Source: Achromobacter spanius
GTDB taxonomy: Bacteria > Pseudomonadota > Gammaproteobacteria > Burkholderiales > Burkholderiaceae_B
Assembly (NCBI RefSeq): GCF_002812705.1
Contig: NZ_CP025030.1
Coordinates: forward strand, 930,001 to 994,000
Length of the DNA stretch: 64,000 nt
Reading direction: 5' to 3'
This document shows positions 3,669 through 43,571 of this stretch, one piece after another. Every line of letters begins with the position of its first letter. Position 1 is the stretch's first letter. The notes below the pieces were generated by a model. It saw only the letters and a list, made by a program, of their open reading frames with translations. It was not told the origin of the DNA and made no database searches. Both the position numbers and the translations under genes were made by a program.

Positions 3669-3669
3669 G

Positions 3670-4602: not shown

Positions 4603-4625
4603 TTGCGTCTCCAAGAAAACAAACA

Positions 4626-4688
4626 CGGCTGCCAGCCTTCGTGCAAAGAAGGATAGCAGCCGTTGGCTACCCGGGGGCAAGCCCCCGG
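4626..4688 (-). terminator. Double hairpin between fdoI and fdhE
   Basis: Reading the minus strand after the fdoI stop, a GGGGGC/GCCCCC hairpin (4671-4688) is followed by a second one. In that one CGGCTGC pairs with GCAGCCG (4626-4662), with an inner CTTC/GAAG, and it runs into TGTTTGTTTT. This looks like an intrinsic terminator or attenuator between the structural genes and fdhE-selAB. Confidence 0.6.
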
Positions 4689-4703
4689 CGGGGCGGGCGA
4701 ACC

Positions 4704-6228: not shown

Positions 6229-6238
6229 GTCGGTTCTC

Positions 6239-9200
6239 CTAAACCTTTTCGACCTTGACCAGGAACGACTTGAATTCCGGAGTCTGGGAATTGCCGTCGC
6301 CCACGAATGGGGTCAGGGTGTTGGCGAGGAAGCCGGGTTTGGCCAGGCCCACAAAGCCCCAGTGGATGGGTATGCCCACGTGGTGCACGGTCTTGCCCTC
6401 GATGGTCAGGGCGCGCAAGCGCTTGGTGACCAGCGCCACGGCCTTGATGTAGCCGCGGTTGGACGACACCTTGACCCGCGACCCGTTGGCAATGCCCAGT
6501 TCCTTGGCCAGCGCGTCGCCGATCTCCACGAATTGCTCCGGCTGGAGAATCGCGTTGATGCGGACGTTCTTGGTCCAGTAGTGGAAGTGCTCGGTCAGGC
6601 GATAGGTGGTGGCCACATAGGGGAAGTTTTCCACCGTGCCCATCGCGGCCAGGTCGTCCTTGAAGACGCGCGCGGCCGGGTTGCTGGTCACGCCCTTGGC
6701 CTTCGGGTACAGCGGGTTGTAGCCCAGTGGGGTTTCGAAGGGTTCGTAGTGTTCGGGGAACGGCCCTTCGGCCATGCCCGCCCGCGCGAAGAAGCGCGCC
6801 ACGCCCTCCGGGTTCATGATGAACGGCCCCATGCCGCCCGCGGGGTTCTCGTCGCCCTTGAAGTCGGGAATGTCGGCGCCCGCCCAGATCTTGCCGTTCC
6901 AGCCGATCAACCTGCGGCGCGGATCGAAGGGCTTGCCCGTCACATCGCAAGACGCGCGGTTGTACAGGATGCGGCGGTTGGCCGGCCAGGCCCAGGCCCA
7001 GTTCAGGGTCTGGCCGATGCCGGTGGGGTCGCTGTTGTCGCGCCGCGCCATCAGGTTGCCGCCGGGGCCCCAGGCGCCGGCGAAGATCCAACAGCCGCTG
7101 GCCGTGGAGCCGTCGTCGCGCAGTTCCGCAAAGCCCGCCAATTGCTCGCCCCCCTTGCGCATGACCTTGGTGGGGTCCTTGGGGTCGACCAGGTCCACCA
7201 GCGCACGGCCGGAATATTCCTTGGCCAGCTCCTCGGCGGTAGGGTTCTGCGGGTTGGCGTACGGCCAGGACAGGTTGACGATGGGGTCCGGATACTTGCC
7301 GCCTTCGTCCTGGTAGAGCTTGCGCAGGCGCGTGAAGATGAGCGACATGATTTCGATGTCGCTCTTGGCTTCGCCGGGGGGCTCGGCGCCCTTCCAGTGC
7401 CATTGCAACCAGCGCCCGGAGTTCACCAGCGCGCCATCTTCCTCGGCAAAACAGGTGGTGGGCAGGCGGAAGACTTCGGTCTGGATCTTGGACGGATCCA
7501 CATCGTTGAGCTCGCCTGCGTTGCGCCAGAATTCCGAGGTCTCGGTGACCAGCGGGTCCATGATGACCAGGTACTTCAGCTTGGCGAAGCCGTCGTTCAT
7601 CTTGGCCTTGTTGGGCGCGGCCGCCAGCGGGTTGAAGCCCTGCGCGATGTAGCCGTTCATCTTGCCCTGGACCATGAGCTCGTAGACCTGAAGCATGTCG
7701 TAGAGCTTGTCCAGCTTGGGCAGGTAGTCGAAAGCCCAGTTGTTTTCGGCCGTGGCGGCGTTGCCCCACCAGGCCTTCATCAGGCTGACGTGGAACTTGT
7801 TGTAGTTCTGCCAGTAGCTGAGCTGGTTGGGACGCAGCGGCTTTAACGTGCGGGTCTCGATGTACTTGGCGTAGTCCTGCTCGGGTTCGTTGGGCAGCGT
7901 CATGTAGCCCGGCAGCAGGTTCGACATCAGGCCCAGGTCGGTCAGGCCTTGAATGTTCGAGTGCCCACGCAGCGCGTTCATGCCGCCGCCGGCAATGCCG
8001 ATGTTGCCCAGCAACAGTTGCACCATGGCGCCGGTTCGGATGATCTGCGAACCGATGGAATGCTGCGTCCAACCCAGCGCGTACAGGATGGTGCCCGCGC
8101 GGTTGGGGCTGGCGGTGGACGCCAGCATCTCGCACACCTTCAGGAACTTGTCTTTCGGCGTGCCGCACACGCGCTCGACCATGTCTTCGGTGTAGCGCGA
8201 ATAGTGCTTCTTCATCAGCTGGTAGACGGTGCGCGGATGCGCCAGCGTGGGGTCCGTCTTGACGAAGCCGTCGTCGCCGCGCTCGTAGTCCCAGCTTGCC
8301 TTGTCGTACGTGCGCTTGTCGGCGTTGTAGCCCGAATACAGGCCCGCCTCGAACGCAAAATCCTCGCGCACGATGAAGGAAAAGTCGGTGTAGTTGCGCA
8401 CGTACTCGTGCTGGATCTTGTCGTTATCCAACAGGTACTTGATGACGCCACCCAGGAAGATGATGTCGGTGCCGGTGCGTATGGGCGCGTAGAAGTCCGC
8501 CACGGATGCCGAGCGCGTGAAGCGCGGATCCACAACGATCAGCTTCGCCTTGTTATGGGCCTTGGCTTCGGTTACCCACTTGAACCCGCACGGGTGGGCC
8601 TCGGCGGCATTGCCGCCCATGATCAACACTACGTCCGCGTTCTTGATGTCGACCCAATGATTCGTCATCGCTCCACGGCCAAACGTCGGGGCAAGACCTG
8701 CCACCGTCGGGCCGTGTCAGACACGTGCTTGATTGTCGAACGCCAACATCCCCATGCTGCGCACGGTCTTGTGCGTGATGTAGCCCACCTCGTTGCTGCT
8801 TGCCGAGGCGGCCAGCATGCCGGTGGTCAGCCACCGGTTAACTGTTTTGCCATCCGCGGTCTTCTCGACGAAGTTCGCGTCGCGGTCGGCTTTCATGAGT
8901 TTGGTGATGCGGGTGAGCGCGTCGTCCCACGACATCCGCTGCCATTTGTCCGACCCGGGAGCCCGGTATTCCGGGTACTTCAGGCGGTTGGGGCTGTGGA
9001 TGAAATCGATCAGCGCCGCACCCTTCGGACAGAGCGTGCCGCGGTTGACGGGGTGATCAGGGTCGCCCTCAATGTGCATGATGCTGGCGCGCGCGTTCTT
9101 GGACCCATCGCCCAGACCGTACATCAGCAAGCCACAGGCGACCGAACAGTAGGGACAGGTGTTGCGCGTTTCAGTCATGCGCGCAAGTTTGTACTGACGG

Positions 9201-9307
9201 ACCTCAGCCATGGCCGTGCCGGGGGCTACCCCCAGCAATGCCAGGCTGGAGCCTGCCAGGGTTGCACCTGTCACCTTGAAGAACTGGCGGCGATTCATGT
9301 TGACCAT
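6239..9307 (-). CDS. fdoG: Formate dehydrogenase alpha subunit, selenocysteine-containing
   Basis: This is the catalytic Mo/W-bis-MGD subunit that oxidises formate to CO2. It is one gene read through an in-frame TGA at 8717-8719, which encodes selenocysteine 197 of 1022 residues; E. coli FdoG has Sec196 of 1016. Upstream are a Tat signal ([10 protein letters not shown]), which sends the folded enzyme to the periplasm, and a [4Fe-4S] site (CPYCSVACG...CPKG). The Sec sits in [20 protein letters not shown], the canonical active site. I chose ATG 9307, with an AGGAG site, because it places the Tat motif at the N-terminus; an upstream in-frame ATG (9385) does not. Standard ORF callers would break this gene into two pieces. 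Confidence 0.96.
8674..8719 (-). promoter_or_regulatory. Bacterial SECIS element with its selenocysteine UGA codon
   Basis: Directly after the TGA (8717-8719) the transcript folds into a long hairpin. The outer stem pairs CACGGCC (8716-8710) with GGCCGTG (8680-8674). The upper stem pairs GGCA with UGCC, closes a GGUCU loop (8698-8694), and sits on a GG/CC pair with a single bulged U at 8703. That U is nucleotide 17 counted from the U of UGA. A bulged U17 and a GGUCU apical loop are the recognised SelB-binding features of E. coli fdhF/fdnG SECIS RNA. Confidence 0.95.
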
Positions 9308-9534
9308 GAAGCACTCCTCTCCTGGTGAATGAACAAGGCTGCTGGCTCGCCCAAAGCGGAAAAGCCCCACAGCCTTGAAGGACATTGCAAAAGTATATGC
9401 CTAAGGGGGACGCCCACGCCATGCATAACGCACGCTGCACTGCGGAAATGAAAGCGAAATGGAAGTTGTTCGCAGATTTTGGATCTTCTTGCGGCTGCTA
9501 CATTTCGCTTTCACTGCTGACCGTTGGAACACCG

Positions 9535-17667: not shown

Positions 17668-18678
17668 TCAGCCCGCCGGCTCCAGCGCGTGCTGGAAGGT
17701 GAAGCTGTCTGCGTAGATGTGGTCCAGGCTGGCGCCGCGTCCGGCCAGCACGTGCTTGGCGTCTTGAATCATGGCGGGTGCGCCGCACAGGTAGATCGCG
17801 TGTTCGGAAAGGTCGTCGTGGTCTTGCGCCACGGCGTCCTGCACATGGCCGCGCCGCCCCTGCCAGCTTGCGTCCGCGCGCGACAGCACCGGCACGAAAT
17901 TGAATTCGTACAAGCGCCCCGCCCAGCCCGCGATTTCGTCTTGCAGATACAGGTCCGCCTGCGTGCGCATGCCCCAATACAGGGTCACGGGCGGGCAGTC
18001 TTCCTTGTCCAGCAAGGATTCCAGGATGGCCTTGATCGGCGCGATGCCGGTGCCCGTGGCCACCATGATGAGCGGGCGCCAATCTTCCTCGTGGTAACTG
18101 AACACGCCCAACGGCGCCTCGATCGTCAAGGCCGCACCGGCCTGCGCCTGGCCCAGCCATTGGTCGGTGTAGCGGCCACCGGGAATACGACGCACATGGA
18201 AGTCGACCATCCCATCCGAGGGCACGGACGCCATCGAGAAACTGCGCGTTTCACCATCCGGCAGCAGCACGTTCATGTACTGGCCCGGCACATAGTCCAA
18301 CCCGCCGTCGGGCAGCGCCAACGTCAGGTGGATGATGTCGTCCGTGTAGGCGTCGATGCGGTGCACGGTGGCGGCCAGTTGGCGCGGCTCGGGAAACACC
18401 TGGCGGCTGCTGGGCACGCTGATGCATAGATCGCTTTCGGCGCGCGCCTGGCAGGCCAGCGCGTAGCCCTCGGCAGCTTCCTCCGGCGTCAACGCCATCG
18501 GGAATTCGTCATAGCGCACCGCGCCGGATTCCAGCTTGATGCGGCAGGTGCCGCAGCCGCCGAACGTACATTCGTGCGGCAGCTTCACCGCCGCGCGTTC
18601 GGCGGCGTCCAGCAGCGATTCGTCGGCGCCGGCGACGAAGGCGGCGCCGGTCTGCAGGATGTGCACGCGGTATGCCAT
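17668..18678 (-). CDS. Flavin- and [2Fe-2S]-containing oxygenase reductase
   Basis: The 336-residue protein is built like phenol or benzoate oxygenase reductases and CDP-glucoseen reductase. Residues 1-95 are a plant-type ferredoxin domain (cysteines in ECTFGGCGTC and ALACQ). A FAD domain follows with RSFSMAS, then an NAD(P)H domain with GTGIAPIKA and LCGAPAMI. It should pass electrons from NAD(P)H to an oxygenase. The natural partner in this cluster is the HDO-fold protein at 25262-25993 with its ferredoxins. It is the last gene of the aldehyde dehydrogenase operon. Confidence 0.9.
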   Translation of the reverse strand: MAYRVHILQTGAAFVAGADESLLDAAERAAVKLPHECTFGGCGTCRIKLESGAVRYDEFPMALTPEEAAEGYALACQARAESDLCISVPSSRQVFPEPRQLAATVHRIDAYTDDIIHLTLALPDGGLDYVPGQYMNVLLPDGETRSFSMASVPSDGMVDFHVRRIPGGRYTDQWLGQAQAGAALTIEAPLGVFSYHEEDWRPLIMVATGTGIAPIKAILESLLDKEDCPPVTLYWGMRTQADLYLQDEIAGWAGRLYEFNFVPVLSRADASWQGRRGHVQDAVAQDHDDLSEHAIYLCGAPAMIQDAKHVLAGRGASLDHIYADSFTFQHALEPAG

Positions 18679-18690
18679 GACGGGCCTCGC

Positions 18691-19170
18691 TTATTTCTTG
18701 ATGTCGGCCTGCACCAGCACTTTCATGCCGCGCGGCTCCAGCAGTTCGGCCAAGGCCGCCAACGCAGCCAGGCCCGCCTGCGTGTCCTGTTCACCATTGC
18801 CGCCGCTCAAGCCCACGCCGCCGATCACCTCGTCATTCACCACGATGGGAAAGCCGCCCACGAACACGGCGAACTTGCCGTCAAAGCTCCATTGGATGCC
18901 GAACGCTTCGTTGCCGGGCAGCGCGGGTCCGTTGGGCGGCGTGTTGAACAGATGCGTCGAACGCTTGTGGCCGGCGGCGGTAAAGGCCTTGTTCCAGGCG
19001 ATTTGCGGGCCGGTGATGCGCGCGCCATCCATGCGTTCCAAGGCGATGGGATAGCCGCCGTCGTCCACGATGCAAATGGATTCCAGCACCCCGATGGCTT
19101 CGGACTTGGCCATGGCCGCACGCACCATCACGCGCGCTTCTTCCAGTTCCAAGCGGTAAATCTGTTTCAT
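18691..19170 (-). CDS. GlcG/HbpS-like protein (DUF336)
   Basis: The 159-residue protein matches the GlcG/HbpS fold: LELEEARVMVRAAMAKSEAIG, then VDDGGYPIALERMDGA, then PIVVNDEVIGGVGLSGGNGEQD. Members are found beside glycolate, propanediol and other catabolic genes; some bind heme. The precise role is unknown. It lies between the aldehyde dehydrogenase and reductase genes, in the same orientation with short gaps, so it is probably part of their operon. Confidence 0.85.
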   Translation of the reverse strand: MKQIYRLELEEARVMVRAAMAKSEAIGVLESICIVDDGGYPIALERMDGARITGPQIAWNKAFTAAGHKRSTHLFNTPPNGPALPGNEAFGIQWSFDGKFAVFVGGFPIVVNDEVIGGVGLSGGNGEQDTQAGLAALAALAELLEPRGMKVLVQADIKK

Positions 19171-19204
19171 AGTCGTAGCCTCTTCAGTGATTGATCGCGC
19201 GCGC

Positions 19205-20665
19205 TCAGCCGGCGCGGTAGATGGTTTTGATTTGCGTGTAGAACTCCAGGCCCACGCGGCCGGATTCCCGGAACGTGGACGTGCTGGAATGCTTCAAGCC
19301 GCCAAACGGCGCGTTGATCAGGTTGCCGGTGGTGGTGCGGTTGATCTTCACCGTGCCCGCCTGGATGTCGCGCGCGAATCGATGTGCGTAGCGCGCGTCG
19401 GTGGTGGCGATGGCGGCGGACAGGCCGTATTCGGTGTCGTTGGCCTTGGCGATGGCGTCGTCATAGCCGTCGACTTCAATCAGCGCAATCACCGGCCCGA
19501 AGATCTCTTCGCGCGCGATGCGCATTTGCTGGGTCACGTCGGTGAAAAGCGCGGGCGTGACGTAGTAGCCGCCGTCAAAGCCTGGGCCGGTCAATTGCTC
19601 GCCGCCGCACAGGTGCGTGGCCTCTTCCTTGCCGATCGCCACGTAGCTCAGCACGTTGTCCAACTGCTTGCGAGTGGCCAGCGGCCCCAAGTCAAAGTTG
19701 CCTTCCAGGCCATTGCCGATGGTCAGCGCCTTGACGCGCGCCACCAGTTTTTCGGTGAACGCCTGGCGCACCTTGGCATCCACCAGCACGCGGCTGGTAC
19801 CCGTGCAGGCCTGGCCGCTTAGCGAAAAGCCGCCTTTCACCGCCAGGTCCACGGCGCGGTCCATGTCGGCGTCGGCCAGCACGATCAGCGGGTTCTTGCC
19901 GCCCAGTTCCATCTGCGTGCGCGTCGTCAGGCCGGCGCTGCGGTGGATCTGTTCGCCCGCGGCGGTGGACCCGGTGAACGAGATGGCGCGCACGGCCGGC
20001 GCGCTGGTGATGGCGGCGCCCACCGCCGCCGCCGGGCCGATCACCAGGTTCAGCACGCCCGCCGGCAAGCCGGCCTGCACAAAGGCTTCGGTCAGGCGGT
20101 AGCCCGATAGCGGCGCGTCGGACGACGGCTTGAATACCACCGTGTTGCCGGCGATGAGCGCGGGCGCGATCTTGCGGGCCGGGATGGAAATGGGAAAGTT
20201 CCACGGCGAGATCACGGCCGCCACGCCCAGCGGTTCGCGCTGGCTGTAAACCACCATGTCCGGGTCATCGTTGACGAAGGTTTCGCCAGTAAAGCTCTGA
20301 CCTTCGACGGCATAGAAACGGATCGTTTGCGCCGAACGCAGCACTTCGTCCTTGGCCAGGTTCAGGCCCTTGCCCTCTTCGCGCGTCAGTTCGCGGGCGA
20401 ATTGGTCCGCGTGGTCTTCCAGGTACTGCGCCGCGCGAAACAGAATGGCCGCGCGCTTCGAGATCGGCATGTCGCGCCAGGCGGCAAAGGCGGCATCGGC
20501 CGCCTGCACCGCGCGCCGCGCGTCGTCGGCGTCCGATACCGGGAAGTTGCCCACGATGTCGCTGGTGTCGGCCGGGTTGATGTTGGGGGCCGTGCGGCCG
20601 GTGGCGCTGGGCACCCAGGCGCCGCCGATATGGTTCATGAAGGTTTGCTGCGAAAGATCGTCCAC
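19205..20665 (-). CDS. NAD(P)-dependent aldehyde dehydrogenase
   Basis: This is a 486-residue aldehyde dehydrogenase with all the key motifs: PWNFP, FTGSTAAGE for cofactor binding, ELGGKNP with the general-base Glu, and GQACTGTSRV with the nucleophilic Cys. EEIFGPV is near the end. It resembles salicylaldehyde, vanillin and oxoglutarate-semialdehyde dehydrogenases, so it probably oxidises an aldehyde intermediate. I prefer the GTG start at 20665 (AGGA 9 nt upstream). ATG 20638 is an alternative but has no ribosome site. A TTGTATAC motif lies about 70 nt upstream. Confidence 0.9.
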   Translation of the reverse strand: MDDLSQQTFMNHIGGAWVPSATGRTAPNINPADTSDIVGNFPVSDADDARRAVQAADAAFAAWRDMPISKRAAILFRAAQYLEDHADQFARELTREEGKGLNLAKDEVLRSAQTIRFYAVEGQSFTGETFVNDDPDMVVYSQREPLGVAAVISPWNFPISIPARKIAPALIAGNTVVFKPSSDAPLSGYRLTEAFVQAGLPAGVLNLVIGPAAAVGAAITSAPAVRAISFTGSTAAGEQIHRSAGLTTRTQMELGGKNPLIVLADADMDRAVDLAVKGGFSLSGQACTGTSRVLVDAKVRQAFTEKLVARVKALTIGNGLEGNFDLGPLATRKQLDNVLSYVAIGKEEATHLCGGEQLTGPGFDGGYYVTPALFTDVTQQMRIAREEIFGPVIALIEVDGYDDAIAKANDTEYGLSAAIATTDARYAHRFARDIQAGTVKINRTTTGNLINAPFGGLKHSSTSTFRESGRVGLEFYTQIKTIYRAG

Positions 20666-20730
20666 GGAAGCGCTTCCTATGCCGGTACGGGAGTGGCCCG
20701 AAATGGGGCGTCTGAGGTAATTTCTGAACA

Positions 20731-20738
20731 TTGTATAC
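20731..20738 (-). promoter_or_regulatory. Candidate GntR-regulator site (TTGTATAC)
   Basis: TTGTATAC lies upstream of the aldehyde dehydrogenase operon. The 6-bp core GTATAC is palindromic and recurs before three other units of this cluster (22409-22414, 22567-22572, 26056-26061). Such AT-rich palindromes are typical targets of GntR/FCD repressors. Confidence 0.5.
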
Positions 20739-20783
20739 TTTAATCTCTAGCGATCGATACGTGAAAACCCCAGCCACGCCGTG

Positions 20784-20806
20784 AAAAAGGGGCCAACAGG
20801 CCCCTT
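20784..20806 (-). terminator. Intrinsic terminator of the permease gene
   Basis: On the minus strand AAGGGGCC pairs with GGCCCCTT across a 4-nt loop and is followed by TTTTT. It lies 27 nt behind the stop of the permease gene at 20833. Confidence 0.85.
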
Positions 20807-20832
20807 CGTGGTTGGCGTGGGTGCGGCCCCGG

Positions 20833-22365
20833 TCAACTCCAGATCAGCACCGCGCAGATGGTGGACACGGATAGCGCCAGCACTACCGGCAGCAGCAGCG
20901 CCCGCACCAGCGACAACACGTTCACGCGGGCAAAGCCTGCCACCGCAATCAACGAAGACCACGCGATCAGCGTGCCGCCACCCGTCCACACCGCTCCCAT
21001 CTGGCCCACCGCGGCGAGCGTCGCGGGGTCCACGCCCACCACCGGACCCAGCGCGCCGGACAAGGTGCCGGTGAGCGGCAGCCCGGCGAAACCGGACCCG
21101 TCGATGCCGGTGATCATGCCAACCAGCAAGACGCCGAACGCGACCAGGAAGTGGTTTTCGGGAATCAGGTGCTGACCGGCCGAGATCACTTCGAACAGCA
21201 GCCCAGGGGCCTGCGCCTGCGGCACGCCCAGGATCTGCGCCGCCGTTTCGTTCGCGCCGATGAAGAAGAAACCGGCAATCGGCAGGACCGATCCCATGGC
21301 CTTGAAGGCAAACACGAAGCCGTCCGTCACATGTTCGGGGCACACGTCCAGCATCTTGCGCGGGCCTTCGGCGGCCAGTGTCACCAGCATCATCACCACG
21401 AAGGCGACGCCGCCCACCAGCGCCGCCGCGTCGCCGCCGCGCAAGGCGGGCAGGGTCGGGAACAGCCGGGGCAGCACCATCACGCCGATCACCGCCAGGA
21501 AGGCCAGCGGCGTCACCACGGCGAAGGTCTTGGACCAGCGCACCCGGCGCCGTTCTTCCTCGCTGACGGTGGGGCCGCTGGGCAAGGCCGGGTCGGCGCC
21601 CATGGTGCCGCGCGCGAGCTCCGCCTTGTCGAACGAGCCGGATTGCTCGATGCGCGCCAGGCTGCCGTCCTGGGCACGCGCCTGCCAGGCGTCCAACAAC
21701 CCCGCGTTGGCGGGCACGATGTGCTTGCGGATCAACAGATAGGCCGCGGTCAGCGCCACGGCGCCGGTGATCAGCGACAACACCAGCGCACGGTCGGCCA
21801 CCACGGCCGCGCTGACCGCCGCGCCCGCCGCCTTGGCGCTGATGCTGGGTGCCACGCCAATCACATAGTCCGACGACAAGGCCATGCCCTGGCCGGCGAT
21901 GGCAATCGCCATGGCGCCTGCCAGGGGCGGCAAGCCGGCGGCGATGGCCGCGGGCAGCAAGATGGCCGACACCAGCGGCACGGCGGGCGTAGGCCAGAAG
22001 AACAGCGAGATCACATAGGTACAGAGCGCGATGATGATGAACGACGAATGGCCGCCCCGCATCACGCGCCGAAACGGCTGCACCATGCGCACGTCCGCCT
22101 GCAAGGTCTTCAGGGAATTCAGCAGGGCGGTCATGAACGTGATGACCAGGAAGATGTTGAACAATTCCTTGGCCGCCACGAAGCTGGCGGAAAAGATGCC
22201 GATCAATGCGCTGATCGGATTGCCGGTAATGGCCAGCACCACCAGAAAGGTGCCGATTACCGATGGCACCACCACGTTGGCCCGCAAAATCATCGTCAGG
22301 ATGATGGCGGCCACGCTGATCAGATATATCCAGTGAGCAGCAGTGAGCACGACGTCCGCTTGCAT
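20833..22365 (-). CDS. Multi-span permease, ion-transporter-like, substrate unknown
   Basis: The 510-residue protein is almost wholly hydrophobic with about 11-13 membrane helices. It has two glycine-rich re-entrant-like segments (GIDGSGFAGLPLTG and VWTGGGTLIAWSS) and no ATP-binding motif. This resembles organic-acid carriers of the ion-transporter superfamily, but I cannot name the family firmly. It is probably the uptake system for the cluster's substrate. A GTATAC motif (22409-22414) precedes it, and it has its own terminator. Confidence 0.7.
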   Translation of the reverse strand: MQADVVLTAAHWIYLISVAAIILTMILRANVVVPSVIGTFLVVLAITGNPISALIGIFSASFVAAKELFNIFLVITFMTALLNSLKTLQADVRMVQPFRRVMRGGHSSFIIIALCTYVISLFFWPTPAVPLVSAILLPAAIAAGLPPLAGAMAIAIAGQGMALSSDYVIGVAPSISAKAAGAAVSAAVVADRALVLSLITGAVALTAAYLLIRKHIVPANAGLLDAWQARAQDGSLARIEQSGSFDKAELARGTMGADPALPSGPTVSEEERRRVRWSKTFAVVTPLAFLAVIGVMVLPRLFPTLPALRGGDAAALVGGVAFVVMMLVTLAAEGPRKMLDVCPEHVTDGFVFAFKAMGSVLPIAGFFFIGANETAAQILGVPQAQAPGLLFEVISAGQHLIPENHFLVAFGVLLVGMITGIDGSGFAGLPLTGTLSGALGPVVGVDPATLAAVGQMGAVWTGGGTLIAWSSLIAVAGFARVNVLSLVRALLLPVVLALSVSTICAVLIWS

Positions 22366-22407
22366 GCGTGATTCCCCTTGTGACGTGGCTGTTAGGTCGC
22401 CACAATC

Positions 22408-22414
22408 GGTATAC
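22408..22414 (-). promoter_or_regulatory. Candidate GntR-regulator site (GGTATAC)
   Basis: A GTATAC core followed by an AT-rich tract lies about 45 nt upstream of the permease start at 22365, at promoter distance. Confidence 0.45.
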
Positions 22415-22566
22415 TATATTTCGTTTGGAGGCATACCAATCGAAATATGCAGTGCCTAGGGAAACCGATAATTCTGAAAATTCCATGAATACCGCTTAGA
22501 AATTACGGGTTTACCCTGAATTTCGAACGGGATATTCATTGCGATCAAAATCAACCCTCGACTATC

Positions 22567-22572
22567 GTATAC
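22567..22572 (+). promoter_or_regulatory. Candidate GntR-regulator site (GTATAC)
   Basis: CGTATACAAG lies 17 nt before the start of the TSUP transporter. It shares its core with the other cluster sites and overlaps the expected start region of transcription. Confidence 0.45.
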
Positions 22573-22589
22573 AAGAAAAGGCCTAGGCC

Positions 22590-23330
22590 ATGTCCACCCT
22601 GTCTTTCCCTGATTTCTGGCAGTACGCCGCCATGGCCGTGGTGGTGTTTGGCGCCGCTGTGGCGCAGGGCGTGGGCGGTATCGGCTTTGCGATGTTCGCG
22701 GCCCCGGTGGCGGCAATGTTCTTTCCGCAACTGGCTCCCGGCCCCCTGCTGACGCTGGGCGGCTTCATTTCACTGTTGACCGCCTTGCGCGAACGGGCCT
22801 TTATCGACTGGTCCAACGTGTCGTACGCCTTGGCCGGCCGCGCGGTCGGCACGCTGCTGGCCATCTATGCAATGGCGCGCTTTGCCCCGCAGACCCTGGG
22901 CGTGCTGTTCGCCGGCATGATCCTGGTGGCCGTGGCGCTAAGCGTGGCGGGCTTGCGCTTTACCGCCACGCCGGGCCGGGTGTCCGGGGCCGGCGTGGCC
23001 TCCGGCATCATGGGGACGATGACGTCGGTGGGCGCCCCGCCCATCGCCATCGTGTTGCAGCACACCACGCCGCCGCAATTGCGGGCCACGCTGGGCGTGG
23101 TGCTGTTCCTGGGGTCGATTTTCTCGCTGGCCATGCTGGCGCTGGCCAAGCGCTACACGGGCTACCACCTGGGGCTGGCGCTTAGCCTGGCGCCGTTCCT
23201 GCTGGCCGGTTTTGTCGTGTCCAACCGCTTGCGCACGCTGCTGCCACCGCAAGCCGTGCGCGGCGTGCTGCTGGCGGCGTGCGCGCTGGGCGCGGTGGGC
23301 GTGCTTGCCAAATCCTTCTGGGGGGCCTGA
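22590..23330 (+). CDS. TSUP (TauE/SafE) family membrane transporter
   Basis: The 246-residue membrane protein has about 7-8 hydrophobic helices in two internally similar halves. The motif GVGGIGFAMFAAPVAAMFFPQLAPGPLLTLGG in the first half is typical of TauE/SafE exporters. Known members move sulfite, sulfoacetate or other organic anions. It starts just after a GTATAC motif and precedes the GntR gene on the same strand, so it should belong to the catabolic cluster. No strong ribosome site is visible. Confidence 0.85.
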   Translation: MSTLSFPDFWQYAAMAVVVFGAAVAQGVGGIGFAMFAAPVAAMFFPQLAPGPLLTLGGFISLLTALRERAFIDWSNVSYALAGRAVGTLLAIYAMARFAPQTLGVLFAGMILVAVALSVAGLRFTATPGRVSGAGVASGIMGTMTSVGAPPIAIVLQHTTPPQLRATLGVVLFLGSIFSLAMLALAKRYTGYHLGLALSLAPFLLAGFVVSNRLRTLLPPQAVRGVLLAACALGAVGVLAKSFWGA

Positions 23331-23395
23331 TGCGCCGCGTCGATGCCTGGTCCGCCGCACCGGCTTGCCGTCGCGGCATTCGGCTACACCCGGTA

Positions 23396-23413
23396 ATACA
23401 ATGCGGACTGTAT
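23396..23413 (+). promoter_or_regulatory. Inverted repeat before the GntR gene (ATACA-N8-TGTAT)
   Basis: ATACA at 23396-23400 and TGTAT at 23409-23413 form a spaced inverted repeat related to the TTGTATAC sites. It lies 24 nt before the preferred GntR start, a position fitting autoregulation. It is weaker than the other sites. Confidence 0.35.
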
Positions 23414-23436
23414 CCATTAATCCATATCTGCTCGCC

Positions 23437-24153
23437 ATGACCACTTCTCCCGTCAGCCCGCAAGCCGTAGAGACGCTGTCTTCCGCCCCGCTGAAGATCG
23501 GCGAGCAGCATCCGCAGTTATTCGCCGTTATCCGGGACAAGCTGCGCGAACGCATCCTCAGCGGGGAATTCACCCCCGGTGACCGCTTGGTGGAAGGCCG
23601 CTTGTCCGAAGAAATGGGCGTATCGCGCATCCCCGTGCGCGAAGCGCTGCGCGCCCTGGCCGCCGAAGGGCTGGTCACCATCGAGCCGCGCCGTGGCGCG
23701 TCGGTATCGGTGCTGTCCGATGCCATCGCCTACGACATGGTGGAAGTGCGCGCCACGCTGGAAGGGCTGAACGCCAAGCTGGCGGCGCAACGCCGCGACG
23801 CCAAAACCGTGGAACGCTTGCAGGAATTCCTGCGCGAAGGCACCGAGGCCGCGCGCGGCGAGCAGTTGGACAAGTTCCTGGCGCTGAACTCCCAGTTTCA
23901 CGAAATGCTGGCCACCATTGCCGGCAACGTGGTGCTGACGGATCTGATGCGCTCGCTGCGTGACCGCACGGCGCTCTTGTTCGCGCCCAGCAACATGCAT
24001 CGCGCCAAGGCGAATTGGGATGAACATTCGCAGATCTTGAATGCCGTGATCGCGGGCAATGGCGACCTGGCCGCCTTGCTGGCCAGCCAGCATGTGCACA
24101 ACGCGGCCAAGGCCTACACAGACGCCCAGCAGCCGCACGACGCGGCTGACTGA
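23437..24153 (+). CDS. GntR-family regulator with FCD ligand domain
   Basis: The 238-residue protein has an N-terminal winged helix (residues about 30-95, with LSEEMGVSRIPVREALRALAAEGLV). An all-helical FCD domain follows whose metal or ligand residues are visible (NSQFHEML, DEHSQILNAVIAGN, QHVHNAA). FCD regulators usually repress catabolic genes until an organic acid binds. I chose ATG 23437; an in-frame ATG at 23401 would fall inside an inverted repeat. It is the only regulator in the cluster and so the likely reader of the GTATAC sites. Confidence 0.9.
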   Translation: MTTSPVSPQAVETLSSAPLKIGEQHPQLFAVIRDKLRERILSGEFTPGDRLVEGRLSEEMGVSRIPVREALRALAAEGLVTIEPRRGASVSVLSDAIAYDMVEVRATLEGLNAKLAAQRRDAKTVERLQEFLREGTEAARGEQLDKFLALNSQFHEMLATIAGNVVLTDLMRSLRDRTALLFAPSNMHRAKANWDEHSQILNAVIAGNGDLAALLASQHVHNAAKAYTDAQQPHDAAD

Positions 24154-24174
24154 TCAGTCAAATAAAAGGCGACA

Positions 24175-24192
24175 GCGCAACGGGCGTTGCGC
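24175..24192. terminator. Hairpin between convergent gntR and ferredoxin genes
   Basis: GCGCAAC pairs with GTTGCGC across a GGGC loop between two convergent genes. No long T-run follows, so it may be a weak bidirectional terminator. Confidence 0.45.
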
Positions 24193-24200
24193 CCGCCATG

Positions 24201-24551
24201 TCAGGCGGAGGGCACCGACGCGTCGGCCGCGTCTGACGCCACCCCCACCACCACGCCCTTGCCGTTCTGCACCACCCACGACACCTTCACGTCGCCGGTC
24301 ACAAAGGTCTGGCAGGCCATGCGGTAGCCGGCTTCGAAGTCTTCGGGACGCAGGTGCTTGCGTTCCTTGGGCTTGATCGCGTCAGTGTGTTCCAGGCCTT
24401 CCTCGATACGGCACTTGCAGGTGCCGCACAGGCCGCCCCCGCACTTGAAGGGGATGCCGCCCTTTTCCTTGAGCGAGACGCGCAGCAGGTTGCTGTTCTC
24501 AGGCGCCGTGGCGACCTTGCCGCCGTTCGAGACGAATGTAATCTGAACCAT
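24201..24551 (-). CDS. [2Fe-2S] ferredoxin (first of two in the cluster)
   Basis: The 116-residue plant-type ferredoxin has cluster cysteines in FKCGGGLCGTCKC and YRMACQ. A C-terminal extension of about 20 residues rich in Val, Ala and Asp follows the domain. It ends the operon headed by the HDO-fold gene. It probably shuttles electrons between the reductase (17668-18678) and the oxygenase. Confidence 0.9.
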   Translation of the reverse strand: MVQITFVSNGGKVATAPENSNLLRVSLKEKGGIPFKCGGGLCGTCKCRIEEGLEHTDAIKPKERKHLRPEDFEAGYRMACQTFVTGDVKVSWVVQNGKGVVVGVASDAADASVPSA

Positions 24552-24557
24552 GTTTTT

Positions 24558-24884
24558 TCAATGCCTTGCGACGGTGGCGGCGGGGCGCAGCGTCAAGGTG
24601 GATTCCATGCTGCCAAAGCGGGTCAGGTGGGCAAGTTCCTTGCGGGCCGCCTCCACCGACGTGAATGTCTCCAGAAACTTGGCGGGCACGCGGTTGACGA
24701 CATAGGGAGGAGTTTCTTCCGTCACGACCAGGCGCGTATCGCCGTGCAGCCGCGCGATGCAGAACACGGCCAAGGCCCGCCCGTAGAACTCGTAGTCATA
24801 CGTTTCGATGATGTCGACGTCGTCGCCGACCTCGGTGCGGAACACGCCGGGCTTGGACGTCAGGATTACGTACACGGCATCCAT
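24558..24884 (-). CDS. Conserved small protein of the oxygenase operon, unknown function
   Basis: The 108-residue protein (MDAVYVILTSKPG...) starts 4 nt after the stop of the upstream ferredoxin and ends 6 nt before the next, so it is in the same operon. It is soluble with no cysteine pairs, signal or membrane segment. I do not recognise the family. Its place between two ferredoxins suggests an accessory or effector subunit of the oxygenase, but that is inference. The longer frame (to 25022) only overlaps the ferredoxin gene. Confidence 0.75.
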   Translation of the reverse strand: MDAVYVILTSKPGVFRTEVGDDVDIIETYDYEFYGRALAVFCIARLHGDTRLVVTEETPPYVVNRVPAKFLETFTSVEAARKELAHLTRFGSMESTLTLRPAATVARH

Positions 24885-24888
24885 GGCG

Positions 24889-25188
24889 CTATGCCTCCCC
24901 GTCCTGAACCAGCTCGACATCGTTGTTGAGCCATAGTTGGCAGGCCAGTCGATAGCCCTGGTCAATGCGATCGCCCAACTGCTTCTTCTCTTTCCAGTTG
25001 ACCGGCGGCAGATGCTCGGCACCCGCCAGCACGCGGCACGCGCACTTGGCGCACTTGCCCATGCCGCATTCGTAGCGCAGATGCGGATACGGAAACTGCT
25101 TGATGCCGGCCCGCACCACCAGATTGGTGTTGTCCTTCACCACGTCGGTGTAGGTCTGGCCGCCTTTATGAAATACAACGGTAGGCAT
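24889..25188 (-). CDS. [2Fe-2S] ferredoxin (second of two in the cluster)
   Basis: The 99-residue ferredoxin has the cysteine pattern YECGMGKCAKCAC...YRLACQ. It is directly downstream of the HDO-fold gene. It differs clearly from the 116-residue ferredoxin in the same operon, so the two are probably not a recent duplication and may serve different steps. Confidence 0.9.
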   Translation of the reverse strand: MPTVVFHKGGQTYTDVVKDNTNLVVRAGIKQFPYPHLRYECGMGKCAKCACRVLAGAEHLPPVNWKEKKQLGDRIDQGYRLACQLWLNNDVELVQDGEA

Positions 25189-25261
25189 GAGTCTGTCGTC
25201 CAGGAACTGCGGGCCGCGCGCCGCGCCTGCGCGGCGCGGCTTCGGCGAACATCAATAACAA

Positions 25262-25993
25262 TCAGGCGGCCAGGCCGAGTTCGGGCAGCTTGATCTCGTG
25301 CTGCACGTAATCGGTGTAAAGCGCCGTGGTGTACAGCAGCCGCATCTGGGCTCCGATTTCGCAGATCTTCAGGCAGCGCTGTTGCAGGTCGACCGTGTTC
25401 GCGTGTTCCAGCACGATTTGATAACCGCGTTCACCGTGGATCTCGTCGGACACGATGTGCAGGTCGAAGAATTCCACTTCTTCGTCGGTGAAGCCGTACT
25501 TCTCGCGCAGCGTGGGCGTCTGCTTGCGGTAGATGGACGGCACCTGCGATTCCAGGCCGACCACCAGGCCCGCCACCGCCACGATGGGGTCTTCGCGCAT
25601 GGCCACGGCATAACACCAGCTTTGCAGCGCGCGCGTGGTGGGCGACATGTTGTCCGGGTTGGTGACCCGTTCGCGCGTGGTGCCGCAGGCTTCGGCAAAG
25701 CGGATCAGCAGGTCGGTATGGCGGTCGCCGCCGATCTCTTCTTCATACATATTGGCCAGCAGGAAGTCCTTGGCCTCGGTATAGGTGTCGGGCGTGCGGG
25801 CGTAGAGATACCCCAGGTAGTCCGCGAACGGACCCACGTAGTGGTAGTGGTTCTCGGCCCAGCGCGACAGATGTTCGCGGCTGAGCTTGCCTTCGGCCCA
25901 GGCAATGGAAAAGGGCGACGCATTGGCGCTCTTGCCCTTGATCGCGTTTTCCAACGCGGTACGGAATTCATCTCGGTTCATCAGTTCTGCCAT
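25262..25993 (-). CDS. Heme-oxygenase-like di-metal oxidase (HDO / TenA-PqqC fold)
   Basis: The 243-residue all-helical protein belongs to the TenA/PqqC/HDO superfamily. The six metal ligands of HDO enzymes can be read out: E85 and H92 (EEIGGDRH), E148 (VGLES), and H179, D183 and H186 (LHIVSDEIH). In family members such as CADD, the E-x6-H, E, H-x3-D-x2-H spacing binds a di-iron site that cleaves or hydroxylates small substrates. Plain TenA and PqqC lack this set. It heads the operon with two ferredoxins. A TTGTATAC site is about 60 nt upstream and a GGAG ribosome site precedes ATG 25993. The substrate is unknown. Confidence 0.82.
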   Translation of the reverse strand: MAELMNRDEFRTALENAIKGKSANASPFSIAWAEGKLSREHLSRWAENHYHYVGPFADYLGYLYARTPDTYTEAKDFLLANMYEEEIGGDRHTDLLIRFAEACGTTRERVTNPDNMSPTTRALQSWCYAVAMREDPIVAVAGLVVGLESQVPSIYRKQTPTLREKYGFTDEEVEFFDLHIVSDEIHGERGYQIVLEHANTVDLQQRCLKICEIGAQMRLLYTTALYTDYVQHEIKLPELGLAA

Positions 25994-26053
25994 GACGCGC
26001 TCCAGTCCAGTAGGGAGGGATACCAGGCTGGTTTAGCCCGGGCATGTTGAACA

Positions 26054-26061
26054 TTGTATAC
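26054..26061 (-). promoter_or_regulatory. Candidate GntR-regulator site (TTGTATAC)
   Basis: This is identical over 8 bp to the site at 20731-20738, and even the preceding bases (ACA) match. It lies about 61 nt upstream of the HDO gene start, so both main operons of the cluster share it. Confidence 0.55.
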
Positions 26062-32689: not shown

Positions 32690-33907
32690 TCAGGCCAGCG
32701 CCGCCACCTCCACCAGCGCGCCGTGACGGATCACGCGCTTCGGGATATCCCCGCCGATCCAGTACGCCAGCTCAGCCGGATGCCCCACGCGCCACGCGAC
32801 AAAGTCCGCCACCTTGCCGGGTTCCAGCGCACCGTGCGTGGCATGCAGGCCCAGCGCGCGCGCCGCGTTCACCGTGGCGCCCGCCAAGGCCTCTTCCGGT
32901 GTCATCTTGAACAGCGTGCACGCCATGCTCAGCATCAAGCGCAGCGACAGCACGGGCGACGTGCCCGGATTCAGGTCGGTTGAAATGGCAATGGGCACGC
33001 CGTGGCGGCGCAGCAGGTCCAAGGGCGGCAACTGCGTTTCGCGCAGCGCATAGAACGCGCCCGGCAACAACACCGCCACGGTGCCGGCGTCGGCCATCGC
33101 CCGCACATCGCTTTCGGTCAGGTATTCCAGATGGTCCGCCGACAAGGCCCCATAGCGGGCGGCCAGCGTCGCGCCATGCAGAGAAGACAATTGCTCGGCA
33201 TGCAGCTTCACGGGCAGGTCCAGATGCTTTGCTGCCTGGAACACCCGTTCAACCTGCTCGGGCGAAAACGCCAGATGCTCGCAGAACGCATCGACCGCAT
33301 CAATCAGCCCTTCGGCCGCCAGCACCGGCAGCATGCGCCGCGCCACTTCGTCGATGTAGTCATCCGACCGCCCCGCGAATTCCGGTGGCAGCGCGTGCGC
33401 GGCCAGACAGGTGGCCTGCACGGTCATCGGCAGTGTCTGCCCCAAACGCCGCGCCACGCGCAGCATCTTGCGTTCATTGGGCAGGTCCAGGCCGTAGCCC
33501 GACTTGACCTCCACCGTGGTCACGCCATCTTGCAGCAGATGCAGCGCGCGTTGGCGGGCGCTGACATACAGCGCGTCTTCGGACGCCTCGCGCGTGGCGC
33601 GCACCGTGCTGGCGATGCCGCCGCCTTGGGCTGCAATCGTTGCGTAGTCCACGCCTTGCAGCCGCTGTTCGAATTCCTTGCCGCGGTTGCCGCCAAAGAC
33701 CAGGTGCGTGTGGCAGTCGATAAGCCCGGGGGTCACCCACGCGCCGCCCAGGTCGTGTTCATGCGCCGCATCCACCGGCGGCAGGTCCGTTTCGTGGCCG
33801 ATCCATTCGATGCGGTCGGCTTGGGTCACGATGGCCGCGCCTTCAATCACCGAATAGGCGCCTCCCGCCATGGTGGCGGCGTGGCAATGTCGCCAGATCT
33901 GTCTCAT
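32690..33907 (-). CDS. hutI: Imidazolonepropionase HutI
   Basis: This enzyme hydrolyses 4-imidazolone-5-propionate to N-formiminoglutamate, step 3 of histidine breakdown. The 405-residue amidohydrolase shows the metal motif [14 protein letters not shown]. It also has [26 protein letters not shown] and the late [13 protein letters not shown] 33907 has AAGGAG at 7 nt; the ATG at 33913 is too close to it. It is the last gene of the hut cluster and converges on the chemoreceptor. Confidence 0.95.
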
Positions 33908-33965
33908 GCACATACTCCTTGAAACCGGCGCCGCGCCACCGGGAGTGGCGGGCGCCGTGCTCGGT

Positions 33966-34000
33966 CAGTCGGACCTATCAGTCCGATCCATCAGTCGGAC
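33966..34000. repeat. Competing hairpin repeats at the permease stop
   Basis: CAGTCGGAC occurs at 33966-33974 and 33992-34000, and its inverse GTCCGAT lies at 33981-33987, so two alternative hairpins can form. The second copy contains the stop codon of the permease gene. There is no T-run. Confidence 0.5.
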
Positions 34001-35397
34001 CCCTGCGCCACCGGCACCGGGATGCCGCCGCTGGGACCGCGCGGCAGGACCAGGTAGCGGTACGCCACGCACAGCAACGCGATCCACACCGCGCCCACGA
34101 CCAAGGCCATCTGCGTGCGCGGAAAATACCCCAGCACCGCGATCACGAACACCAGGAATGCAATCGCCAGCAGCGGCCCGATCGGCCAGAAGGGCACCGG
34201 GAACTTCAAGTCGGCGACTTCCGCAGGACTCATCTTGCGCCGCATCGCCACCTGCGACAACAGAATCATCAACCACACCCACACGGTCGCGAAGGTGGCA
34301 ATCGACGCGATCAACACGAACACGTCTTCGGGTATCAAATAGTTCAGCAGCACGCCCAGCAGCAGCGCCACGGTCATCACCACCACCGTCATCCACGGCA
34401 CGCCGGATTTGGACACCGCCGCGAAGCCGCGCGGCGCCTGGCCCTGGCGGGCCATGCCGTAGAGCATGCGGCCCGCGCCGAAGATGTCGCTGTTGATGGC
34501 CGACACGGCGGCCGAGATCACCACGATATTCAAAATGGTGGCCGCCGACTTGATGCCCAGCCCGTCAAAGATCTGCACGAAGGGGCTGCCCTGGCTGCCG
34601 ATCTGCGTCCACGGAAAAATGGACATCAGCACGAACAACGTCAGCACATAGAACAGCAAAATGCGCAGGGGCACCGCATTGATGGCGCGCGGGATGGTGC
34701 GACCGGGGTCCTTGGCTTCGCCCGCCGTGATGCCGATGATCTCGATGCCGCCAAAAGCAAACACCACCACCGCCAGCGACGCGATCAGCCCGCCCACGCC
34801 GTTGGGCATGAAGCCGCCGTGCTCCCACAGGTTATGCACACCCGTCGCCGCGCTGTCCACATTCAAGCCGAAGCCGAACAGCATGATGCCCAAGCCGCCG
34901 GCAATCATGGCGATAATCGCGCCCACCTTCAGCAACGACAGCCAGAATTCCAGTTCACCAAACACCTTGACCGAACACAGGTTGATGGCGCCGATGAAGA
35001 ACACGATGGACAGCACCCAGATCCAGCGCGGCACGTCCGGGTACCAGAACCCCATGTACAAACCGAAGGCGGTCACGTCGGCGAGGCAGACGATGATCAT
35101 CTCGAAGGCATACGTCCACCCCGTCAAAAATCCCGCGATGGGGCCGAGGTAGCTGGTGGCGTACTGCCCGAAGGACCCGGACACGGGGTTTCTGACCGCC
35201 ATTTCCCCCAACGCGCGCATCACCATGTACACAGCCGCGCCGGCAATCAGATAGGCGATCAGCACCGACGGGCCGGCGTCCTGGATGGCCTTGGCCGACC
35301 CGTAGAACAGGCCCGTGCCGATGGCCGATCCCAATGCCATGAAGCGTATGTGCCTGGCGTTGAGCCCCCGTTTCAAATCCTGCGTTTCAGCTTGCAT
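33991..35397 (-). CDS. APC-family amino acid permease, probable histidine uptake
   Basis: The 468-residue permease has about 12 transmembrane helices. Its N-terminus, [29 protein letters not shown], is typical of the ProY/AroP amino-acid transporter subfamily. Its position between hutH and hutI suggests histidine or urocanate uptake, but this is inferred from context. It is the second of two permeases in the cluster. Confidence 0.88.
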
Positions 35398-35512
35398 TTC
35401 CGTCTCCGTACTTGTTATAGGCGTGCAGCATCACGCCGTGCGAGCGCCTTCTACGGGCGCGTACGCACAGCGCGGGAATGCGGCCGTCAGACGCCGGCCG
35501 CAAGGGAAAAAA

Positions 35513-37042
35513 TCAAAAACTGGGCAACAGCCCCGCGGGCATCAGCCCGTTCAAGACCTGCGCCGATATCAGGCTGCTGGCGGCGGCGATATCCGGCGCG
35601 AAGAAGCGGTCTTCTTCGTAGTGCGGCACTTGCTCGCGCAACACGCGGCGCGCCTGTTCAAGCTGGGGTGACGTCTTCAAGCCTTCGCGGAAGTCCAGCC
35701 CCTGGCACGCGCCCAGCCATTCGATGGCCAGGATGTCGCGCACGTTGTCGGCCATCGCCCAGAGCCGCTTGCCGGCGTTGGGCGCCATCGATACGTGGTC
35801 TTCCTGGTTGGCCGACGTGGGCATGCTGTCCACGCTGGCCGGATGCGCCAGCGCCTTGTTGTCGCTGGCCAGCGCGGCGGCGGTCACCTGCGCAATCATG
35901 AAGCCCGAATTCACGCCGCCCTTGGCGACCAGGAACGGCGGCAACTGCGACATGTGCTTGTCCATCATCAGCGCAATGCGCCGTTCGGACAGCGCGCCGA
36001 TCTCGGCCAGGGCCAAGGCCAGGTTGTCCGCCACCATGGCCACGGGTTCCGCATGGAAGTTGCCGCCCGAGATCACGTCGCCCTGGGACACGAACACCAG
36101 CGGGTTGTCCGACACGGCGTTGGATTCAATTTGCAGCACATGCGCCGCGTGGCGGATCTGCGTCAGGCAGGCGCCCATGACCTGGGGCTGGCAGCGCAGG
36201 GAATAGGGGTCCTGCACCTTTTCACAATCGGCGTGCGAATGGCCGACTTCGCTGTCCTGGCCCAGCAGGTCGCGATAGACGCCGGCCACGGCGATCTGGC
36301 CCGGCTGGCCGCGCGCGGCGTGAATGCGCGCATCGAAGGGCACCCGCGAACCCAGCATGGCTTCCACGCTGAGGCTGCCGCACACCAGCCCGGCCGCCAT
36401 CATGTCTTCGGCGTCGAACAAGCCGCGCAGGGCGTAGGCCGTGGACACCTGCGTGCCGTTCAACAGCGCCAGCCCTTCCTTGGCCGCCAGCGTCAGCGGC
36501 ACCAGGCCGGCGCGCGCCAACGCTTCCTGCGCGGGCAACCACTCGCCTTGATAGCGCGCGCGGCTTTCGCCCAGCAGCACGATGGACATATGCGCCAACG
36601 GCGCCAGGTCACCCGAGGCGCCCACCGAGCCTTTTAGCGGTATATGCGGATAAACGCCCGCGTTCACCATCGCGATCAGGCTGTCGATAACGTGGCGGCG
36701 GATACCGGAATAGCCACGCGCCAGGCTGTTGATCTTCAAGACCATGATCAGCCGCACCATGGCGTCATCCAGGGGCTCGCCCACGCCCGCCGCGTGCGAG
36801 CGCACCAGCGAACTTTGCAGCGCTTCGAGGTCTTCGCGCGCGATCTTGGTGGATGCCAACAAGCCAAAGCCCGTGTTGATGCCATACACCGTGCGGCCCT
36901 CGGCGATCAGGCGCTCGACGGTCGCCACGCTGGCGTCGATGGCGTCCGCCGCGCCCGCATCCAGCGTCAAGCGGACCGGCTCTTGATAGACGCGCCGCAA
37001 ATCGGCCAAGGTGAGGTGGCCGGGTTTCAAGTGCAATTCCAT
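35513..37042 (-). CDS. hutH: Histidine ammonia-lyase HutH
   Basis: HutH removes ammonia from histidine to give urocanate, step 1 of the pathway. The 509-residue protein has the MIO-forming Ala-Ser-Gly in [14 protein letters not shown], and [20 protein letters not shown] and [14 protein letters not shown] 37042 ([10 protein letters not shown]) has AGGAG 7 nt upstream. The 48-residue extension of the frame runs into the permease gene and was rejected. Confidence 0.96.
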
Positions 37043-37098
37043 TTTTTTCTCCTGCGCCGGTGCTTCGGCGTCTTGCAATGGGGTGGTCAGGCCGGCCG

Positions 37099-38499: not shown

Positions 38500-38582
38500 C
38501 GCGTTGTCTCGTGGGTGGCGTGGGGCCGATCGTTGCCGGTCGCGGCCCCACGCGGGTTGGCGGAATTGAAACCGGTGTGGCC

Positions 38583-40682: not shown

Positions 40683-40700
40683 CTACACCCATCCTACGGG
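40414..40700. repeat. Dispersed intergenic repeat, two copies, with a 17-bp inverted repeat
   Basis: The string TGATGGGTTACGCGCGATCC starts near 40415 and again near 40632, and similarity continues on both sides. Copy 1 contains perfect 17-bp inverted arms (CGCGCTTCACCCATCCT, 40462-40478, and its complement, 40489-40505). Copy 2 reaches the 3' end of hutD. The pattern CCCATCCTACGGGC is typical of intergenic repeat families in beta-proteobacteria. Confidence 0.8.

Positions 40701-41276: not shown

Positions 41277-43571
<2,295 letters not shown>

Follow-up and report, generated by a model that had tools for sequence, protein, structure and literature searches.

Known systems closest to the Achromobacter spanius locus

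About a dozen heme-oxygenase-like oxygenases (HDOs) have been validated, and they are presented in the context of biosynthesis in the relevant part of a 2026 review (PMC13108848); the word ferredoxin is absent from the main text of that review. Here we analyze a stretch of 64,000 nucleotides of Achromobacter spanius DNA (contig NZ_CP025030.1, positions 930,001 to 994,000; called the window below, with all coordinates given in it), in which a gene for an HDO-fold protein is linked with electron-transfer, transport and regulatory genes. Judged by analogy, the nearest precedent appears to be MboA/MboB of mangotoxin biosynthesis, where, as here, an HDO and a reductase with NAD(P)H, flavin and Fe2S2 domains are encoded in one cluster. 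MboA requires MboB for its second oxidation, and the authors regard the two, in a passage of their 2026 paper, as possibly the first characterised dedicated pair of an HDO and its redox partner (PMC13185094). However, MboA/MboB is biosynthetic, has one reductase and acts on a tripeptide, whereas the window system has importers, two ferredoxins and an orphan protein in an apparently catabolic setting; this comparison is one of descriptions.

The other systems to which the locus can be compared share single aspects with it. The p-aminobenzoate synthases CADD and NePabS have the same fold and the same six aligned ligand positions as the window HDO, which lacks their sacrificial Tyr and Lys (Ser29 and Gln158 take these places). 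The Rut pyrimidine pathway combines an oxygenase, a reductase, an isochorismatase-type amidohydrolase, an alpha/beta hydrolase and a permease, its RutA being a flavin enzyme. Relatives of the window system are Rut-like in having a RutB-like amidohydrolase at some loci and an alpha/beta hydrolase at others, but their oxygenase is an HDO, and the hydrolases occur in only part of the loci. Soluble methane and toluene monooxygenases consist of a reductase and/or a ferredoxin, a small extra protein and a ferritin-like diiron oxygenase, and they would work alike if the mechanism proposed below is true. In place of the ferritin-like hydroxylase of multicomponent monooxygenases, the window protein has a predicted heme-oxygenase fold; ferritin-like diiron oxygenases are contrasted with HDOs in section 4 of the review (PMC13108848).

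The HDO and the electron-transfer genes linked with it form a conserved and apparently coregulated system. An earlier note on this DNA, written from the sequence, knew of no described pathway with this gene set, and we too found none in open-licence PubMed Central as covered by titles and the beginnings of abstracts.

Organization of the locus

The ten genes and the four GTATAC sites of the locus are as follows.

25262..25993, minus strand: HDO-fold oxygenase candidate, 243 aa (Pfam Haem_oxygenas_2, E 1.6e-38)
24889..25188, minus strand: Fdx1, plant-type [2Fe-2S] ferredoxin, 99 aa (C41, C46, C49 and C83 by sequence)
24558..24884, minus strand: U108, 108-aa protein of an orphan family, between Fdx1 and Fdx2
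24201..24551, minus strand: Fdx2, [2Fe-2S] ferredoxin, 116 aa (C37, C42, C45 and C80 by sequence)
23437..24153, plus strand: GntR/FCD regulator (start inferred; reading frame open from 23212)
22590..23330, plus strand: TSUP transporter (TauE/SafE family, by family match)
20833..22365, minus strand: permease, 510 aa, outside Pfam families
19205..20665, minus strand: aldehyde dehydrogenase (ALDH; probable start GTG 20665, reading frame listed from 20731)
18691..19170, minus strand: GlcG/HbpS-like protein, 159 aa
17668..18678, minus strand: BenC/AntC-like reductase (Red; Fer2, FAD_binding_6 and NAD_binding_1 domains)
26056..26061: GTATAC before the HDO operon
22567..22572: GTATAC before the TSUP gene
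22409..22414: GTATAC before the permease gene
20733..20738: GTATAC before the ALDH operon, with KGTATACAATGTTC in common with the HDO promoter

The first minus-strand operon has the order HDO, Fdx1, U108, Fdx2, and the second, which ends at 17668, the order ALDH, GlcG, reductase, the limits of both being drawn from spacing and strand. The TSUP and GntR/FCD genes form a plus-strand pair that lies tail to tail with the HDO operon, and the permease gene is divergent from the TSUP gene. The ATG of the ALDH reading frame (20731) sits 2 nt beyond the GTATAC site; the GTG at 20665 has GGAAG upstream and gives a product of 486 aa, compared with a median of 487 aa in relatives, and is probably the true start. 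A GC-rich inverted repeat in the gap between the HDO and Fdx1 genes (25185-25265) was no better as a hairpin than shuffled sequences (z -1.38, 20 of 200 as good). The permease had no Pfam match up to E 1 and no match to PDB profiles up to E 10.

What the earlier note had read in this region was largely borne out. The 243-residue heme-oxygenase-like protein with a six-ligand pattern is there, with a Pfam match and invariant ligands, and all genes are present of both the operon said to join it with two [2Fe-2S] ferredoxins and a 108-residue protein outside known families, and the operon said to encode a flavin/[2Fe-2S] reductase, an aldehyde dehydrogenase and a GlcG-like protein. The permease and TSUP transporter, with which the note considered the set complete, are both present as well, but the GntR regulator and the four GTATAC sites were missing from its list.

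Conservation and spread of the gene set

Species genomes were scanned, which yielded 494 relatives, and the best of these were kept as 79 distinct loci with at least 86% identity; 27 were counted as Achromobacter and 52 lie outside it. Neighbours were sought within up to 10 kb on each side of the HDO gene, and some loci stop at contig edges. All ten genes were present in 50 of the 79 loci. Taken singly, Fdx1 was present in 77 loci, U108, Fdx2, GlcG and GntR in 76 each, the permease in 73, ALDH in 69, the reductase in 66 and TSUP in 56. In all 76 loci with Fdx1, U108 and Fdx2, this trio is contiguous, on one strand and in constant order, and the order of the genes around it is shuffled between lineages. 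Thus, the co-occurrence of the ferredoxins and the 108-residue protein, usually with the reductase, on which the earlier note had staked its reading, holds for the trio in 76/79 loci and for the reductase in 66/79. Three loci lack a complete trio: in the genome of one (L040) the trio lies elsewhere (L127), with GTATAC 41 nt before Fdx1; in that of another (L080) U108 is split into two pieces on two contigs; and a search of a third genome (L046) for the trio gave no match, the HDO gene there lying 539 nt from the contig end. As some loci, e.g., those of Belnapia and its relatives, have no ALDH or reductase gene within 10 kb, we place both outside the minimal core.

Among 398 Pseudomonadota genomes, an HDO of at least 87% identity and the U108 profile mark the same four; a fifth genome has an HDO relative of 46% identity without U108 and with different neighbours. 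Seven of 300 Burkholderiales genomes have an HDO of at least 81% identity and two others only a relative of 31-32%, while 385 Alphaproteobacteria genomes include one with the HDO and 11 with relatives whose best matches are 29-46% identical. No HDO match between 46% and 81% was found in these three samples at an E limit of 1e-20. Within the 52 non-Achromobacter loci, the median identity was 81% for GlcG, 76% for Fdx1, 75% for the permease, 72% for ALDH and Fdx2, 61% for GntR and 53% for TSUP. Mirror-tree correlations were set aside, as they were without a control for species relatedness. Copies of the locus are found on plasmids or megaplasmids of Cupriavidus and Caballeronia (6 records), and two transposase genes lie downstream of the copy on the mobilizable Caballeronia plasmid pSBC2-4. 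These plasmid copies, together with the patchy distribution, suggest horizontal spread.

The GTATAC site and the regulator

GTATAC occurs nine times in the window, and one occurrence lies ahead of each of the four transcription units. In a set of 84 loci (the 79 and five fetched later), the 250 nt upstream of the HDO gene contained it in 76/84 cases, those upstream of the permease in 78/78, TSUP in 48/57, GntR in 37/75 and ALDH in 35/74 (9 of the 35 outside Achromobacter). It was rare or absent upstream of Fdx1 (12/82), U108 (7/81), GlcG (3/81), the reductase (0/67) and Fdx2 (0/82), in keeping with the mostly operon-internal position of these genes. The mean frequency over the same loci, sites included, is 0.07 per region. 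When all 64 palindromic hexamers were compared in the 200 nt upstream in the 79 loci, GTATAC ranked top at the HDO (71/79), permease (73/73) and TSUP (47/56) genes, with a runner-up of 24 at each; the counts outside Achromobacter were 44/52, 46/46 and 20/29, respectively. The permease and TSUP counts are not independent of each other, as the two divergent genes have a common upstream region at part of the loci. In the 27 Achromobacter loci, 107 of 140 GTATAC occurrences lie at the four promoters (27 each at HDO, permease and TSUP, and 26 at ALDH), and the HDO and ALDH sites have GTATACAATGTTC in common. A search of the whole A. spanius genome (6.43 Mb, a single contig) for the 14-mer KGTATACAATGTTC, one mismatch being allowed, gave only the HDO and ALDH promoters; the reversed control pattern does not occur.

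In other lineages, the site also precedes an amidase gene, itself followed by an MFS gene, in 22/23 loci, and the gene of an ABC binding protein in 7/7, six of which also have an isochorismatase-type hydrolase. It was found before an ornithine-cyclodeaminase gene in 9/41 cases and before a GGT-like gene in 1/8, and before the MFS gene and an alpha/beta-hydrolase gene in none (0/22 and 0/3). Since GTATAC is common to the HDO, permease, TSUP, amidase and ABC-importer units, their genes look like one regulon.

The GntR protein scored 78.5 bits against the NanR model (cut-off 260) and, more strongly, 129 bits against a PhnR-type model (cut-off 271.5). NanR binds a GGTATA repeat, as stated in a part of PMC8012715. 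By analogy with this FCD protein, whose model is matched below its cut-off, the GntR/FCD protein of the locus is the likely binder of GTATAC. A search for the site in open-licence PubMed Central gave only general GntR papers.

The HDO

E85, H92, E148, H179, D183 and H186 of the window HDO are invariant in 27 of 27 aligned sequences, and in a HMMER alignment they pair with E81, H88, E142, H174, D178 and H181 of PDB entry 1rcw, which we take to be the metal ligands of CADD. By this alignment the protein has the three His and three carboxylate ligands (3H/3C) by which section 4 of the review defines the HDO class (PMC13108848). Foldseek finds a heme-oxygenase-like helical bundle in its predicted fold, among the highest-ranked chains only, so that the absence of a family there carries no meaning. 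Presumably, the HDO binds a dimetal cofactor (dinuclear iron or Fe/Mn) and activates O2.

By sequence and structure the closest relative of the window HDO is CADD/pABA synthase, and the placement against PqqC and TenA, which the earlier note had named as decisive, came out as it expected: scores and fold are nearer CADD than either of them. Neither family model reaches its cut-off, the scores being 99.6 bits for CADD (NCBIfam TIGR04305, cut-off 200) and 51.7 bits for PqqC (TIGR02111, cut-off 240). A part of PMC11965152 names Tyr27 as the sacrificial residue and Lys152 as the amino donor of CADD. In the alignment with 1rcw these residues correspond to Ser29 and Gln158, and Y141 and Y170 of CADD to L147 and F175. 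In the 52 non-Achromobacter loci, which were picked by HDO similarity, the median identity of the HDO is 89%, compared with 50% for U108 and 58% for the reductase. This unusual conservation suggests that the HDO reaction is tightly constrained. Two loci (L034 and L073) have two HDO copies each.

The redox proteins and U108

Red combines Fe2S2, flavin and NAD domains, and its gene lies close to that of the HDO, as in the MboA/MboB type; 66/79 loci have a match to it. U108 gave no match in Pfam or NCBIfam and none better than E 1.1 against PDB profiles. It has one cysteine and thus no cluster motif, though some databases label it a ferredoxin. In the sample of 398 genomes, it is present only alongside a close HDO. 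Since U108 is restricted in this way, and lies between both ferredoxins wherever all three are found, it is a candidate coupling or docking protein.

Accessory genes

An ornithine-cyclodeaminase-family protein, with 3hdj as its closest PDB entry, is co-clustered in 37 loci. This partner is absent from the window locus, and three matches in the A. spanius genome are 24-32% identical. A distant ornithine-cyclodeaminase-family gene (32%) lies at window positions 55325-56374, adjoining an Lrp/AsnC-like gene (labelled by eye). Ornithine cyclodeaminase is mentioned in a part of the C. metallidurans genome paper, in a siderophore cluster. Further partners in some lineages are GGT-like hydrolases, a DUF1028 protein, alpha/beta hydrolases or esterases, ABC or MFS importers and a porin. 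Homology gave little guidance on the substrate: the ALDH, isochorismatase, GGT and ornithine-cyclodeaminase relatives matched protein models below the cut-offs only, the single model whose cut-off the amidase exceeded is a generic amidase one, and PDB matches gave broad families only.

Proposed pathway and alternative explanations

We infer the metal, the O2 chemistry, the electron path, the aldehyde, the substrate class and the pairing of regulator and site from the gene content and arrangement described above. In the pathway that we propose, the GntR/FCD protein would control the regulon through the GTATAC sites, and the permease would take up a small organic molecule. At a dinuclear iron or Fe/Mn site, the HDO would activate O2 and oxidize this molecule in the first oxidative step. 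NAD(P)H would be the electron source, the BenC-like reductase and either or both of the ferredoxins would carry the electrons to the HDO, and U108 would probably couple or dock the redox proteins. The product of the oxidation, or of a hydrolysis, would be an aldehyde that ALDH converts to an acid; GlcG would handle an intermediate and TSUP would export an anion. In other lineages the set is extended by an amidase, by a GGT-like hydrolase, or by an ABC importer together with an isochorismatase-type amidohydrolase. That one putative regulon unites importers, hydrolases and ALDH speaks for a catabolic role, and the recurring neighbours include no genes recognised as biosynthetic. The amide hydrolases with the shared site, together with the isochorismatase, hydantoinase-like (by eye) and racemase neighbours of some distant HDO relatives, point weakly to an amide-linked or N-containing substrate as somewhat likelier than others. 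Taken together, a GntR-controlled catabolic regulon started by a diiron HDO with its own reductase and ferredoxins is the reading that we consider probable, if by no means assured. The more specific proposal, in which the reductase, two ferredoxins, U108 and HDO form a multicomponent diiron monooxygenase on a heme-oxygenase fold that opens an amide or an N-heterocycle in an undescribed pathway, is possible but rather doubtful.

Several points weigh against this catabolic reading. The compared loci were selected as nearest relatives. ALDH and the reductase are found in 69/79 and 66/79 loci, and their weakest matches, 46% and 31% identical, may be paralogs; with such incomplete presence the product need not be an aldehyde. 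Three loci lack a good reductase match (L042, L077 and L078), and their genomes hold reductase relatives of at most 29%, 37% and 39% identity, respectively, so the electron donor may vary. The Achromobacter locus has no amide hydrolase. Finally, GTATAC overlaps a -10-like TATAC(A/T) and could be a promoter element; its rank among the 64 palindromes and its presence before unrelated accessory operons favour, though they do not prove, an operator overlapping the -10 region. The interpretation of the earlier note is partly supported: the ligands and fold of the HDO, the co-occurrence and the shared site speak for it, but the oxidation and the aldehyde that it proposes are putative, as would be a substrate among the amines, N-heterocycles or sulfonates that it named for a growth screen.

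The same genes could serve the synthesis of a specialised metabolite, or detoxification, rather than growth. HDOs are presented as enzymes of natural-product biosynthesis in a part of the review (PMC13108848), and the patchy, partly plasmid-borne spread would fit detoxification. However, importers, ALDH and amide hydrolases carry the same promoter site as the HDO, and the recurring neighbours include nothing recognised as a gene for a carrier, a ligase or product export, which makes either role unlikely. We give still less credence to a sulfonate desulfonase, in which the HDO would cleave a C-S bond to an aldehyde and sulfite, with TSUP exporting the sulfite and the ABC importer supplying the sulfonate. 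Such products would employ both ALDH and TSUP; the latter belongs to the TauE/SafE family, and the ABC binding protein is SsuA-like in some loci. Yet TSUP was not found in 23/52 non-Achromobacter loci (some cut by contig ends), no gene for a sulfite oxidase or reductase was recognised among the recurring neighbours, and the SsuA and TauA scores (75.2 with a cut-off of 163.5, and 35.9 with a cut-off of 304.25) are far below the thresholds. Moreover, TSUP and NMT1-type proteins serve many anions. A sulfonate is therefore a possible substrate, but a weaker candidate than an amide or N-containing compound.

The remaining alternatives concern the HDO itself. A metal-free enzyme of the PqqC/TenA type is very improbable, given the six ligand positions invariant in 27 sequences, the PqqC score far short of its cut-off and the redox genes linked to the HDO. 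A self-sacrificing p-aminobenzoate synthase like CADD, with the cluster serving cofactor synthesis, is largely refuted and scarcely credible: Ser29 and Gln158 replace the sacrificial Tyr and the donor Lys, the CADD score reaches about half of its cut-off, and importers and hydrolases would be unexpected in such a cluster.

Distant HDO relatives and other features of the window

Six of seven fetched neighbourhoods of distant HDO relatives (29-46% identity) were read, L121, in which a single reading frame was called, being left out and some labels being assigned by eye; several contain UbiD, isochorismatase, Asp/Glu racemase, SDR and importer genes. At L085 (8929-10563), an HDO relative of 44-46% identity is divergent from a 277-aa Rieske-domain protein without a clear ring-hydroxylase catalytic domain, which could be another HDO redox partner. 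At L119 and L120, relatives of 38-39% identity are accompanied by isochorismatases, Asp/Glu racemases, SDRs and a UbiD-type decarboxylase (three L119 genes by Pfam, the others by eye), an arrangement that recalls pyridine-ring catabolism. L124 has tandem HDO relatives and a third at 3221-3874, beside CoxS/CoxL-like and TRAP transporter genes (by eye). At L123 (8736-9746), a gene with two cupin stretches, presumably gentisate-dioxygenase-like, is divergent from the HDO relative.

Elsewhere in the window, a tRNA-Sec gene with adjoining selB- and selA-like genes and a formate-dehydrogenase operon (by eye) lies at 150-9385, and a hut-like histidine-utilisation operon (labels by eye) at 32690-41414.

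Significance

If the proposed pathway is true, it would contain the first dimetal HDO in catabolism within open-licence PubMed Central, and it would be a pathway spread horizontally across several proteobacterial classes. The regulator, the amidase and the ABC binding protein would offer three independent sensors of the substrate, and thereby a route to deorphanising the system. The HDO family would then be tied to bacterial nutrition through a linked electron chain, an importer and a promoter site.

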